Source: a virus
Virus record (IMG/VR): IMGVR_UViG_3300018013_000164
Span: 1-21,220 of that record
Reading direction: 5' to 3' (one strand)
Length of the DNA: 21,220 bases
Shown here: positions 3,281-12,347 of the stretch, piece after piece
Numbering within the stretch: position 1 is the stretch's first letter
How the letters are laid out: every line of letters starts with the position of its first letter
Position numbers and translations under genes: made by a program
Notes under the pieces: generated by a model
What the model was told of the DNA's origin: nothing
What the model saw: the letters and a program-made list of their open reading frames with translations, nothing else
The model's database searches: none

Positions 3281-3505
3281 GATTCCCAGCGGCTGCTCCT
3301 AGAACTGGTGAAGCCTAAGGCCCTTGGGCGATTGTCGGCAGTGAACCCGCTCGACAGGCTATGCGTCAATGGTGGCTTGCGCGGGAGAAACCAGGGGTAA
3401 CCGGGACGCGCCGGCCGCGCATGGTTCCGATGCGGGTGGAAATCGGGAAGAGCTGGGTTAAAGCCAGCACAGGGCGGTGGAAGGCCGCCCACCATTGAGG
3501 ACACC
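3281..3505. other. 225-base gap with two hairpins
   Basis: No confident gene lies here. A 7-bp stem with a 3-base loop (3313-3329, one G-T pair) occurs in the first part. A GGGCGG/CCGCCC stem with a 7-base loop (3472-3490) lies just before the next gene. Neither is followed by a T-run, so they are not classical terminators; they could affect mRNA processing or translation of the gene at 3506. Confidence 0.4.
3361..3498 (+). CDS. Possible 45-residue basic peptide
   Basis: An ATG-initiated frame rich in Arg, Lys and Trp fills part of the gap and ends 7 bases before the next ATG, a spacing compatible with coupled translation. The ribosome site is poor and the frame could be chance in GC-rich DNA. 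No family recognised. Confidence 0.2.
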   Translation: MRQWWLAREKPGVTGTRRPRMVPMRVEIGKSWVKASTGRWKAAHH

Positions 3506-3880
3506 ATGGCGAAGGAAAAAGAGGGCAAGGAAGAGCCCAAGCGCGAGCGCGAAGGCGAGAAGAAAGACGGCGAAAAGAGCGAGGGCAAAGGCAAGAAGCG
3601 GCTGCATCTGCATGAAATCCGCTCGACGCAGGCGCACGATGGCTCGATTGTGCATCACCACACCTACAAAGAGCATAAAGATGCGCCTTTTACGCTTCCG
3701 GAGCGCGGGCCGGTGGCGACCAGCGCCAACCCTGAAGAGGCCGGGCAGCATGTGGCTGAGCAGTTTGGCATGAACCAGGCGCCCTTCGGCGTCGGCCAAG
3801 GCGGAGCGGATGGCGGCGGCGATGAACCCGAGCCACAAGGCGGCCAGCCTCAGCAGGCCGGGGGAATGCCCCAGGGATAG
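3506..3880 (+). CDS. Charged His-rich small phage protein
   Basis: The 124-residue protein has three parts. Residues 1-33 are almost all Lys, Glu, Gly and Arg. About 34-60 is a His-rich core (LHLHEIRSTQAHDGSIVHHH). The C-terminal half is rich in Gly, Pro, Gln and Glu and probably disordered. A GAGG ribosome site precedes the ATG. It ends 2 bases before the TTG start of the terminase, so the two are probably translated together. The position is where many phages keep a small terminase subunit, but I see no helix-turn-helix and do not assign that. Function unknown. Confidence 0.55.
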   Translation: MAKEKEGKEEPKREREGEKKDGEKSEGKGKKRLHLHEIRSTQAHDGSIVHHHTYKEHKDAPFTLPERGPVATSANPEEAGQHVAEQFGMNQAPFGVGQGGADGGGDEPEPQGGQPQQAGGMPQG

Positions 3881-3882
3881 CA

Positions 3883-5586
3883 TTGACACTTGATATTGCC
3901 CGGCTCGCAGAGGATGGCGCGTATCAGGAAGAGATGCGCCACCGCTGCTTTACCGATCATTTTTTTCTCGCTGAGTTGATGGGCTTTCACGACTTTGTGG
4001 AACGCATCCACCGACCGACCGTCGATCTTTACTTTCCCAAAAACCCCAACATCTCAATTCGCGACCAGCACCCGATCAAGAAGCGAATGCACTTGGACCC
4101 GCGCGGAACCTTCAAAACGACGCTGGGCCGCGTCGATTCGATGCAATGGCTGCTGGCTTTCTCTGCCGAGATAACCATGCTCAACGAAACTGCCACCCAA
4201 CCGCTGGCGCAAGCGATCAGCATTGCCATTGCGAAGTATTTTTATCGCGCGAAAGGAATGCCATCAAAGCCGCTGCATTTGATGTTTCCCGAGCTGGTGG
4301 TGGATAAGATGCCGACAGGCATGTGGGACGCGCCCAACCGGAGAGAAGCAGGCGACGGCGACCTGGATAAGACGATCAGTTTTACGTCGCCCGATTCGAC
4401 GCAATCGGGCTGGCACCCATGGGTGATTAACCCCGATGACATGGTGGACACCAAAAACAGCGGCATTCACGCCAGCAATGATGTGCGCAGAGGAGTGATT
4501 GATACCTATTTCACGAATGTCTACACACTCCGCAAAGGCGGCTACATCAACATTCGTGGAACTTGCTACCATCCCTTTGATCTTTATGGCGAGATTTTGC
4601 GAGGAATAGACCGCGAAAACCCCGAAGCCGCTGGGTGGAAGATTTTGATCCGAAGCGCCTGCACAGTGAAAAATGGGACCCGATTATTGCCGGGTGAATT
4701 CCCTGCTGAAAATGATTTAGTGATCAATTTCCCCGAGCTGCGAGATATGGATTACAGCAGTCTGCGCAGCAGATTTATAGACAATTTTGAAGTGTTTATG
4801 GGGCAGGACCAGAATGACCCGCAGGGCGGGGCGACGGCGCGGTTTGATGAAAAGCTTTATCGGAGCTGCTTGATTGCTCCGGAGAGGATTCCGCTGGGCG
4901 GGGAAACGTATCTGGTGTGGAGGCCGCGCTATGGCGGGAAAAACTCGATGGCCAAATTTGCCGAAGGGGCCGTGGCCAAGGTGCTGGACGGGAAGATTTT
5001 TGTGCTCGACGCATGGCAGGGCAACTATGCCCCGAGCAACGAAGCGGAGAAGATTGTGGCGCAGGCAAAAGCGCATGACGCCGACGGGGTGATGATTGTG
5101 GCCGTGCCGGGTTCTGAGTATGTGATGAATCATGTGAGGAACGAAGCCCTGCGCAGAAACCGCAGCGTGAGGATGCAATGGCTGGATTTTGAAGAGGACG
5201 ACGCCCGCGCCGCCGCCAGCATGGAGCAACTGGAGCCGCTGATGAAGGCCGGGCGCGTGCTGTTTTCAACGGGCATGGGCAAGGCAGCGGAATGCCAGAG
5301 CCAGTTTGTGCATTTTGGTTTGATGGAACAGAATGGCATTGTGGACTGCATCTCGAAATTTGCCGACCTGGTGCCGTTGTCGCAGATGCGGGCCAACATG
5401 ACCGAAGAAGAGCTGGAATGGCAACGGCGGCGGCGGGACGATGCGCTGATTTCGGCGTTTCTTGACCAGCAGGGCATGAACTCAGTGGACGAACAGGCGC
5501 GTCAGAAGGCGGATGCGCACTTGGCGGCGATGAGCAGCGTGAGTAACTTCAGCTTGCCGGCGATGCCGGGAGGATTGGATGGATGA
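3883..5586 (+). CDS. terL: Terminase large subunit
   Basis: The 567-residue product fits a large terminase, the ATPase-nuclease that drives DNA into the prohead and cuts it. A terminase-type Walker A, PRGTFKTT, is at residues 73-80. The likely Walker B is WVINPDDMV (180-188, D185/D186). The C-terminal part (about 343-500) has the layout of the RNase H-like nuclease, with a DGKIFVLDAW strand (D376) and a late IVDCISKFA helix (D488). At the place where the first nuclease aspartate is expected the sequence reads WRPRYGG (346-352), without Asp. The start is TTG, 2 bases after the previous stop, with weak AGGGA upstream; the next in-frame ATG is 17 codons further. The gene overlaps the next by 4 bases (ATGA). 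Confidence 0.85.
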   Translation: MTLDIARLAEDGAYQEEMRHRCFTDHFFLAELMGFHDFVERIHRPTVDLYFPKNPNISIRDQHPIKKRMHLDPRGTFKTTLGRVDSMQWLLAFSAEITMLNETATQPLAQAISIAIAKYFYRAKGMPSKPLHLMFPELVVDKMPTGMWDAPNRREAGDGDLDKTISFTSPDSTQSGWHPWVINPDDMVDTKNSGIHASNDVRRGVIDTYFTNVYTLRKGGYINIRGTCYHPFDLYGEILRGIDRENPEAAGWKILIRSACTVKNGTRLLPGEFPAENDLVINFPELRDMDYSSLRSRFIDNFEVFMGQDQNDPQGGATARFDEKLYRSCLIAPERIPLGGETYLVWRPRYGGKNSMAKFAEGAVAKVLDGKIFVLDAWQGNYAPSNEAEKIVAQAKAHDADGVMIVAVPGSEYVMNHVRNEALRRNRSVRMQWLDFEEDDARAAASMEQLEPLMKAGRVLFSTGMGKAAECQSQFVHFGLMEQNGIVDCISKFADLVPLSQMRANMTEEELEWQRRRRDDALISAFLDQQGMNSVDEQARQKADAHLAAMSSVSNFSLPAMPGGLDG

Positions 5587-5762
5587 AAGTCGATCTCACA
5601 AAAGAGGAATGCAAGTACCTTAGCCTGGCAATGACAGAAGCTGTGGCCCAAGCCGACGCTGACCCAGAGCAATCAAAAGAGACCATCGCGATCCGGTTTG
5701 CCTTCCAATCTATCAAGGTAAAGATGGATTATGCACTGGCGGAGCCAAAACATGGCGACTAG
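5583..5762 (+). CDS. 59-residue linker protein between terminase and portal
   Basis: This ATG overlaps the terminase stop (ATGA), and the frame ends 11 bases into the portal gene, a double overlap typical of coupled translation. The product is helical and charged (EECKYLSLAMTEAVAQA, then a basic IRFAFQSIKVKM stretch). No known family, no Zn motif, no membrane segment. The terminase-portal junction suggests a packaging accessory, but that is inference from position. Confidence 0.6.
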   Translation: MKVDLTKEECKYLSLAMTEAVAQADADPEQSKETIAIRFAFQSIKVKMDYALAEPKHGD

Positions 5763-10108: not shown

Positions 10109-11293
10109 ATGAGAAGCACATGGACAACTAGACTGAGCTATGGCCTGGTGAAGTATCTGCTGTGGCCGATTTTGCAGTTTGTGGCCGCCGTGGGCGGCGC
10201 GATTGCCGTGACCGCCTCACTGGCGCTGCACGCGGCCACACTGGCCGCCCACGCGCAGGTGTTTTGCGATGGCGCCAGCCCGGCGGCGCAGACCAGCGCC
10301 AACATGCCCCAGGCGCGGCTGACGATTCACTATAACCGTGTGTTTATGCAGTGGCTGTATATGTATCTGAACAAGCTGCTGCTTTGCACCCACATGGACC
10401 TGCCGGAAAAAAGCGGCCAGACCTTCCGCAACTTTATGAGCATCCCGCTGGGCGCGGACACCGCGCAGCAGACGGAAGGAACGATCAACTCGCCTGAGCA
10501 GATCAATGTGAACTTCAGGGACATTGTGGTGGGGCAATGGGCGAACTATAACAACATCTCCGACCTGGCGTTTATGACTTCGATCTCGAACGACCTGGAG
10601 GAAAACCGCCGCATCATGGCCTACCAACTAGGCCAGACGGTGGATGACCTGGTGATGTATATGTTCGACTATCTGCGCACCTTTGACACGCGCACCGCCA
10701 ACCAGGACAGCCTGGTTGCGCCCTATGCCTTTGGCAAGAACATCATTGAGCAGATGCCCGCCAGCTTGAGCGGCGCAACCGTGCCCCCGATGGAATCTGG
10801 CACCTACAACGGCTCGATTCATCCGTTTTTTGTGGGCGACCTGCAGCTCGACAACAGCAACAACAGCGTCGTGGACATTTGGAAGCACACCGACGCCGGC
10901 CAACTGAAGCTGGAAGAGCTGACAATGGACGATGAGGGCCAGGGCGCGACAAAGATTCTGGAACTTTTTGGCGCACGCTGGCGGCAGAGCACCAATCAGA
11001 CGCAGTATGCCAACTGGCAGGGCGGTGGAACCACCGGGGTGAGCACTTATTTGGCCGGCAAGCAGGCCATGGTGTTTATCAACTTTCCGAATAAGCGCCA
11101 CACCAAGATTGACCCGCGCTGGGAAAACATGAATCTGTGGGCTGGCGAATATGTGGCCAAGACCGCCTATGACCCCAACGGGCTGATTATGGCCGGAACC
11201 GGCTATAACTGCGTGCTGGGCATTGGGCTAACACCGGACCCGGTAGCGACTAGCAGGGCGAGGATTGCGGTGGCCGTGCCGCAGACGACGTAA
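10109..11293 (+). CDS. Major capsid protein, N4-gp56-like
   Basis: From about residue 60 the protein follows the N4-gp56 capsid pattern: RLTIHYNRVFMQWLYMYLNK, then LPEKSGQTFRNFMSIPL, a TEG loop, VGQWANYNNISDLAFMTSIS, and a long helix with LGQTVDDLVMYMFDYLRT. It should form the icosahedral shell. The first about 50 residues are unexpected: a short basic start, about 30 hydrophobic residues and AHA at 47-49, much like a signal peptide or membrane span. An ATG at residue 66 (10304) would remove this, but it has no ribosome site, whereas GGGAG precedes 10109. Family fairly sure; the extension is discussed as a finding. Confidence 0.75.
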   Translation: MRSTWTTRLSYGLVKYLLWPILQFVAAVGGAIAVTASLALHAATLAAHAQVFCDGASPAAQTSANMPQARLTIHYNRVFMQWLYMYLNKLLLCTHMDLPEKSGQTFRNFMSIPLGADTAQQTEGTINSPEQINVNFRDIVVGQWANYNNISDLAFMTSISNDLEENRRIMAYQLGQTVDDLVMYMFDYLRTFDTRTANQDSLVAPYAFGKNIIEQMPASLSGATVPPMESGTYNGSIHPFFVGDLQLDNSNNSVVDIWKHTDAGQLKLEELTMDDEGQGATKILELFGARWRQSTNQTQYANWQGGGTTGVSTYLAGKQAMVFINFPNKRHTKIDPRWENMNLWAGEYVAKTAYDPNGLIMAGTGYNCVLGIGLTPDPVATSRARIAVAVPQTT

Positions 11294-11375
11294 AGCGGCG
11301 GAGTTGGCGGAGTTAGGCCGGGTTTTTAACACCGCTAACTCCGCTAACCCTGCTAACACCGCTAACAACGTTATA
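11294..11375. repeat. 9-bp-periodic inverted repeat, element A
   Basis: The gap before the zinc-ribbon gene is a run of 9-base units. The left part has GGAGTTNGC units; the right part has the complementary GCTAACNCC units. Arms 11298-11316 and 11335-11353 can pair over 19 positions (16 Watson-Crick, 2 G-T, 1 mismatch) with an 18-base loop containing TTTTT. Further GCTAAC units follow to 11366. A related element lies at 11653-11743. Confidence 0.7.
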
Positions 11376-11388
11376 GGGAGAGCGAACC

Positions 11389-11652
11389 ATGGCTGACCAG
11401 AAATTTTGCCCGCGATGCGGAAATCTGGGCGTGAAAAGAACGGACGCAACCCGGGAGATTTGGGATTGTGAAACTCATGGCGTGATTTTTGAGGTTGCGC
11501 TGCCCGTGACGGAAACCAAAGCCCTGGCGCCGGGAGTGAAACCGGTGGTAACGGCCGCGCTGCAACCAGCAGCGGCTGCGCCAGCCAAAGCCGCGGTGGG
11601 AACAAAAACGCCCACCGTGGCCTATGCGGGGGGCTATAAACCGAAGGGGTGA
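11389..11652 (+). CDS. Zinc-ribbon small protein
   Basis: The 87-residue product has a one-ribbon N-terminus, C7-x2-C10 with C27-x2-H30, followed by a Pro/Ala-rich, probably disordered tail (ALQPAAAAPAKAAVG). A GGGAG ribosome site lies just before the ATG. It is flanked on both sides by the 9-bp-periodic hairpins. Zn-ribbon peptides of this size in phages often bind nucleic acid or assist assembly; no named family is recognised. Confidence 0.6.
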   Translation: MADQKFCPRCGNLGVKRTDATREIWDCETHGVIFEVALPVTETKALAPGVKPVVTAALQPAAAAPAKAAVGTKTPTVAYAGGYKPKG

Positions 11653-11743
11653 ATAGCGGCGTTGGCGGAGTTAGCGGAGCTAAAAGCCCGGACTAACCCC
11701 GCTAACACCGCGAGCAACGCTAACAAGGCTTACCCCGCTAAAA
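11653..11743. repeat. 9-bp-periodic inverted repeat, element B
   Basis: Second copy of the element at 11294-11375. Arms 11656-11674 and 11693-11711 pair at 16 of 19 positions plus one G-T. GCTAAC-like units continue with 9-base spacing up to the AAGGAG ribosome site of the next gene. It follows the stop of the zinc-ribbon gene directly. Confidence 0.7.
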
Positions 11744-11753
11744 GGAGCGAACC

Positions 11754-12347
11754 ATGGCCGAAAAAGGGCTGCAAGAGATTGAAGCTGAGATCAAGCGCAT
11801 TCAGCTTGAGACGGCGCAGATTCAACTGGAGCAGGTGCGCGAACAAAACGAGGAATATCGCGCGCGCAGGGGCGCCAAGCTGCGCCAGAACGAGCAGAAC
11901 CTGGCGCAGCTGAGGGCCGACCATGCGGAGAAACGCGCGGTGATTGCCACTTGCACCCACCGCCAGGGTGGAAGCCCTGGACGGGAAAGAAAAGGCGGGG
12001 GGCCCAGCGCGCTGCGGGTGGTGATTTTGCCGGATAACCGTGAGCTGGTGATGTGCGCCAACTGCCCGCTGCGCGTCTTCAGCCCCTTCCCAGGCGACAA
12101 AAACCCCGGCATGAGAAAGGGTGAAAGCAAGCAGCAAGCCCAGGCCCGCGTGGAGGCCTATAACAAGGATCTGGCCGAGTTTGAGCGGCTGAAGGAACTG
12201 TCACAGGACCAGCTCACGCCGGAAGCGGCCAACCCCATGCACTGCGGCAAGACCTTTGCCTTTCAGGGCAAGGACGGCAACAACATGGTGATGCCCGCGC
12301 CCTGCGACGGCTATGCGCAGGGGCTGGATAACCGGCAGGTGGCCTGA
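11754..12347 (+). CDS. Coiled-coil zinc-binding protein
   Basis: The 197-residue product begins with a long Glu/Gln/Arg coiled coil (residues 3-62). A metal-site region follows, C67-x-H69 with C101-x2-C104, set around a strand pair (ALRVVILPDNRELVMCANC). More Cys appear at 164 and 184. AAGGAG lies 7 bases before the ATG. It is a likely dimer or oligomer with a nucleic-acid or protein-binding ribbon. I do not recognise a named family; position just after the capsid gene suggests a head or packaging accessory. Confidence 0.55.
   Translation: MAEKGLQEIEAEIKRIQLETAQIQLEQVREQNEEYRARRGAKLRQNEQNLAQLRADHAEKRAVIATCTHRQGGSPGRERKGGGPSALRVVILPDNRELVMCANCPLRVFSPFPGDKNPGMRKGESKQQAQARVEAYNKDLAEFERLKELSQDQLTPEAANPMHCGKTFAFQGKDGNNMVMPAPCDGYAQGLDNRQVA

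Follow-up and report, generated by a model that had tools for sequence, protein, structure and literature searches.

The window examined here is the entire IMG/VR virus record IMGVR_UViG_3300018013_000164 (21,220 bases) and represents a tailed phage, in which terminase and major head genes were identified. The major head protein gene (10109-11293, + strand, stop codon TAA at 11291-11293) matches PHROG 1357 (E 1.2e-4); its product is 71-85% identical to its relatives and 32% identical to the major head protein of Tunturiibacter phage Tunturi_3, the sole named phage among its relatives, whose record gives Tunturiibacter, of the Acidobacteriota, as its host. Downstream of this gene lie, in order, 1) gap 1 (11294-11388); 2) a zinc-ribbon gene (11389-11652, + strand, 87 amino acids, CPRCG...CETHG), with Pfam matches below the cutoff to DUF6758 (E 2e-4) and Zn_ribbon_RPB9 (E 0.0035); 3) gap 2 (11653-11753), the end of which had earlier been placed at 11743 and is corrected here; and 4) a gene of unknown function (11754-12347, + strand, 197 amino acids), which follows further downstream in each of the 18 related phage loci that were inspected. 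Elsewhere, the window carries a perfect 46-bp tandem duplication at 1222-1318 (2.1 copies, 100%).

Both gaps contain arrays of a 9-bp unit, arranged as two arms in the same order, with the complement GGNGTTAGC first, then a short loop and then the forward GCTAACNCC. The left arm of gap 1 consists of two GCTAACNCC units on the - strand (11298-11317) and the right arm of five phased 9-bp units on the + strand (11325-11370). The stem thus begins about 4 nt past the stop codon of the head gene, within the limit of about 15 nt by which we judged likeness to REP/BIME elements. In gap 2 a left arm of about three units (11654-11682, - strand) begins immediately past the zinc-ribbon stop codon and is followed by a right arm of degenerate phased 9-bp units (11692-11741, + strand). 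The Shine-Dalgarno sequence of the zinc-ribbon gene, together with its start context (11380-11396, + strand), recurs at 11745-11761 with 94% identity, and the gaps themselves, compared in direct orientation, are alike over 54 nt (72%).

Taking a phased chain to be at least two GCTAACNCC units with at most one mismatch per unit, we find that such chains are confined to these two gaps within the window (11334-11369 +, 11658-11675 - and 11692-11709 +; 8 units) and that none arises in 200 dinucleotide shuffles of the whole window. Single 9-mers with at most one mismatch number 28 in the window versus 14.5 +/- 4.0 in the shuffles. On the + strand, the computed folds of gap 1 (-39.3 kcal/mol, z -3.95) and gap 2 (-40.7 kcal/mol, z -3.67) each beat all 200 shuffles. 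The longest uninterrupted stems in the two repeat gaps are 10 and 8 bp; among ten other listed window gaps of more than 25 bp the longest stem is 2-7 bp in nine and 10 bp in one (3281-3505). The unit chains, the inverted units and the fold z-scores therefore confirm the original prediction that both gaps form hairpins of 9-bp units. The same prediction took a 9-base period to be close to one helical turn, but a turn is about 10.5 bp, so that proteins bound to the array would wind around the helix. No Rfam family matched the window above its gathering score, and no DNA similar to the gaps and gene was found among named phages and plasmids.

Three perfect units were sought in a collection of 84,980 species genomes and occurred in 88 stretches; by record title, 59 of the 80 listed belong to Acidobacteria, mostly Acidobacteriaceae. 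Within one genus, GCTAACNCCGCTAACNCC with at most one mismatch was matched in 53 of 59 genomes, between 1 and 259 times each and at least five times in 32 genomes, versus 0-6 times per genome for a reversed-pattern control. This array-rich genus includes a MAG deposited as Terracidiphilus (L111, G005); of 150 genomes sampled from the family of G001, 22 match, mostly once or twice. BLAST of gap 1 gave matches in 35 of the 59 genomes of the genus, the best of them 93-97% identical over 32-40 bases. The short unit is repeated head to tail in intergenic regions at many loci per genome, and such arrays belong to a lineage of Acidobacteriaceae, in which they are dispersed between genes. Searching for the unit elsewhere, as had been suggested with the original prediction, thus revealed the same units in host-type genomes and, since the same arrays occur in the same arrangement in gaps of Acidobacteriaceae, the virus seems to carry the gap filler of its host and not a cassette. 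A search for the host through the terminase gave no match in genome contigs, and 398 genomes of the family yielded no close homologue of the head protein, one of them having two distant matches (29%).

The placement of the arrays in host DNA was analysed in 56 stretches (1.037 Mb) from three genomes, picked around pattern matches and annotated with our own gene caller. Here 73 of 79 arrays are intergenic, in DNA of which 19.5% is non-coding, and four control units gave 2, 0, 0 and 0 arrays in the same stretches. After three of the 73 were dropped for having no gene on one side, the arrays follow an edge rule in which the left edge of a gap bears the GGNGTTAGC strand and the right edge the GCTAACNCC strand, regardless of the directions of the genes (58 of 70, p 2e-8). 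By class the rule is followed in 42/50 co-directional, 11/14 convergent and 5/6 divergent cases, the last two classes each not being significant alone, and it extends to single-arm gaps, which have no partner array (39 of 47). Both phage gaps follow it as well. The hairpin order is found in 23 of 23 two-arm host gaps of 40-260 nt, and the host gaps L203, L209, L211, L213, L224 and L238 resemble those of the phage. Among 57 host array gaps, 13 are two-arm and 44 single-arm, and single-arm gaps form no hairpin of the phage kind.

By position, 32 host arrays are stop-proximal versus 22 start-proximal. Among the former, 27 start no more than 15 nt from the stop codon, many of them being single-arm, and on the start side of co-directional gaps all 16 arrays are in forward sense. 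An unselected sample of G005 (222 kb) showed a small excess of GCTAAC before starts (4 versus 1). The GC palindrome CGCGCGAAGCGCG, or close variants of it, often lies between the 9-bp units in host gaps (L217, L203, L138, L211). We also considered whether the arrays supply in-frame backup stop codons and rejected this, the phase of the 32 stop-proximal arrays being unskewed (12, 13 and 7; p 0.38). In a test for selection at the RNA level based on G-U asymmetry, the sense strand folded better in 6 of 20 co-directional two-arm host gaps and was on average 3.2 kcal/mol worse than the antisense strand, so nothing in these folds suggests that the host stems were selected as sense RNA.

One orthologous gap, that between accB and accC, was compared in 30 of 48 matching genomes, namely those given a locus. 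Within 60 nt upstream of the start codon, 25 of the 30 have a sense-oriented unit and 3 a reversed one. The gaps are otherwise largely unalike, ranging from 32 to over 200 nt (the end of the upstream gene was not found in 3 of the 30), and the theme is kept while the sequence turns over. By eye, we spotted 8-bp variants (GCTAACTT, GCTGACTT and GCCAACTT) in place of the 9-bp unit in the accC leaders L253, L257, L263 and L264.

Elements of at least three units are present in 6 of 89 viral loci tested (L006-L094). In one of these contigs, L012, a stop codon is joined directly to three units (TAGTTAGCGGAGTTAGCGG), which run in the direction that the host rule predicts; its neighbouring frames read like tail genes from their translations, which suggests that it is a second tailed-phage contig. 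A hairpin of the GGATGGGGCACCC type adjoins the array of L012 (2875-2960). Such hairpins form a second dispersed family (CCCATCC...GGATGGGG-type, motif GGATGGGGCACCC) that is seen next to 9-bp arrays in L183, L200, L227, L241 and L012, and the GGATGGGGCACCC motif occurs 15 times in 1,036 kb of host stretches versus 0 times in 357 kb of control Acidobacteriaceae DNA. A two-unit pattern was found in 70 viral contigs, with both orientations close together only in L033, where ten units in both orientations (5546-5731) lie inside a 932-codon open reading frame, 9 bp corresponding to three codons.

Relatives of the head protein were found at 19 loci in viral contigs, and the slot after the major head gene was compared in 15 of these after dropping one duplicate contig, two near-identical ones and one that is cut before the end of the gene. 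In 6 of the 15 distinct relatives, and in the window, the head gene is followed by an uninterrupted stem 9 bp or longer, versus 8 of 640 random windows (Fisher test on the relatives alone, 1e-7). Shuffled-energy z-scores across the 15 are weaker, with L084, L087 and L092 below -3 and L079 and L082 between -2 and -3, and in four relatives (L077, L078, L080, L081) the zinc-ribbon gene comes almost directly after the head gene with no strong stem. The hairpins that do occur in relatives are unrelated in sequence to the arrays of the window. Since relatives often place unrelated hairpins after the head gene, the slot seems to want a stem, which in the window seems to be supplied by host-type repeats.

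Other short repeats occupy the same slot in L089 (GGGATTAGGGGTTAGGG, after 4217) and L087 (GTTGTCAGTTGTCAG, after 5149). A separate intergenic element of 210 nt, at 3281-3505 of the window and before an open reading frame at 3506-3880, is 87% identical to L076 5175-5380, where it occupies the head-to-zinc-ribbon gap and hence a different gene junction from that in the window. A 74% copy is present at L319 1501-1690, in one of the 398 Acidobacteriaceae genomes. This element has no match in Rfam or among named phages and folds no better than its shuffles (z -0.65); it is possibly a mobile intergenic element or a structured RNA.

On balance, we lean towards the view that the two gaps hold copies of a host-type intergenic repeat and that their role is that of a stop-proximal intercistronic stem built from these copies, which the phage would have acquired from its host. 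The layout reads stop codon - (GGNGTTAGC)n - loop - (GCTAACNCC)n - ribosome site - start codon; in the phage each copy forms a stable stem that stands only a few bases past the stop codon of the preceding gene, and the next ribosome site is left free. Acting at the RNA level, and by analogy with stop-proximal REP hairpins, the stems after the head and zinc-ribbon genes may shield the upstream message at its 3' end and may slow the passage of ribosome or polymerase into the next gene, and in this way would influence expression. Against a combined stop-plus-start role, the edge rule seems to hold also in convergent and divergent gaps, where such a role cannot fit both sides. The folding test in host gaps, the predominance of single-arm gaps, the small GCTAAC excess in G005 and the four relatives that have no strong stem in the slot also speak against the favoured view.

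The original prediction had offered a different account, in which the paired repeats bracket the zinc-ribbon gene and allow it to be gained or lost by recombination. The similarity of the two gaps in direct orientation, including their start contexts, would suit such a cassette. However, of the 18 related loci readable beyond the head gene 10 contain the zinc-ribbon gene and 8 do not, and none of the 19 loci carries an element of at least three units, although single, chance-like unit matches do occur. Nor was any locus seen that keeps a single remnant element. The gene varies among relatives without arrays, so the repeats do not bring or remove it, and we reject gain or loss through the repeats as extremely improbable. 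The presence of the gene is thus unlinked to the arrays, which are nevertheless not absent elsewhere. Intrinsic termination is also quite improbable. Stable GC-rich stems do follow the stop codons and the relative L079 has a stem and then a T run in its post-head slot, but a T run is absent after the stems of the window and a terminator scan of 10900-12100 gave 3 sites versus 2.0 +/- 1.4 in shuffles; both the scan and the sequence lead us to reject a Rho-independent terminator (a GC stem, then a T run) here.

It is harder to set aside the idea that the arrays are neutral debris of slippage or template switching, that is, mutational sequence of the host which fills gaps without function and which the phage acquired by recombination. 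The rapid turnover of the accB-accC gap with its changing unit numbers, the lack of any sign of RNA-level selection and the counts of 0-259 across genomes of one genus are all consistent with this. It does not sit well with the strong rule of edge and orientation, which includes the single-arm gaps, with the unit retained before accC, or with two copies kept within a compact phage structural operon, and we regard neutral filler as possible but rather doubtful. Equally tentative is a model, of the kind proposed for TAACTGA arrays, in which the forward array acts as a leader for translation that a factor associated with the ribosome (S1, cold-shock or CsrA-like) would bind, with the inverted arm as a tuner. 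The uniformly forward start-side arrays of co-directional gaps and the forward unit in the accC leaders argue for it, as do the TAACTGA arrays reported with the same placement (PMC4679880, in the part consulted). This model explains the start side, but leaves unexplained the stop-side and convergent arrays, the stop-proximal ones being at least as frequent as the start-proximal. A further, unlikely reading is that the arrays are gene-edge punctuation common to host and phage, which Rho or some RNA-binding protein could recognise and so gate transcripts where genes begin and end. Each array is G-rich outward from either gene end, and incoming RNA, whether leader or antisense, could then present unstructured C-rich units every 9 nt; phages could copy the mark into their structural operons, following the rules of the host.

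The stop-proximal stem that we favour can be compared with known systems. In enterobacteria, REP hairpins occur near the preceding stop codon, and those within 15 nt are described as stalling ribosomes (PMC12306157, in a passage citing earlier work), REPs being, according to an abstract, single palindromes of 20-40 bp (PMC3733652). The likeness here is the stem close to a stop codon, whereas the arms consist of tandem 9-bp units in variable number. Short intergenic arrays as such are already known from cyanobacteria and Beggiatoaceae. The cyanobacterial STRR are, according to the excerpt consulted, short tandem units in intergenic gaps, some of them capable of forming hairpins between the genes of a single operon (PMC2670836). 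The phage and host arrays share with them the short tandem intergenic units, some hairpin-capable, but STRR units are usually 7 bp, not 9 bp, and belong to another phylum, and the arrays here differ further in being placed in inverted fashion at the two edges of a gap and in having copies in phages. The TAACTGA arrays of marine Beggiatoaceae are, in the portion of the account consulted, intergenic and mostly sense-oriented just before start codons, mostly without a ribosome site, with 169 direct sets versus 1 inverted (PMC4679880). That unit is 7 bp and almost never inverted, whereas the Acidobacteriaceae unit has a different sequence of 9 bp and is mirrored, sharing the orientation towards the start codon on the start side. 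The string "Acidobacteri" is absent from the same text (PMC4679880), and our own literature search, which covered titles and abstract openings outside subscription journals, found no description of the repeat in Acidobacteria. As far as that search extends, the 9-bp unit of Acidobacteriaceae, its mirrored rule at both gap edges and its carriage by phages seem to be undescribed.

These observations describe an intergenic repeat that is restricted to one lineage of a soil phylum of scant genetics, that is strictly placed at the borders of genes and that phages carry as well. The repeat provides a mark in the sequence by which phages may be assigned to hosts, and the accB-accC gaps form a natural orthologous set for testing the function of short intergenic arrays, a question that STRR and TAACTGA arrays left open.
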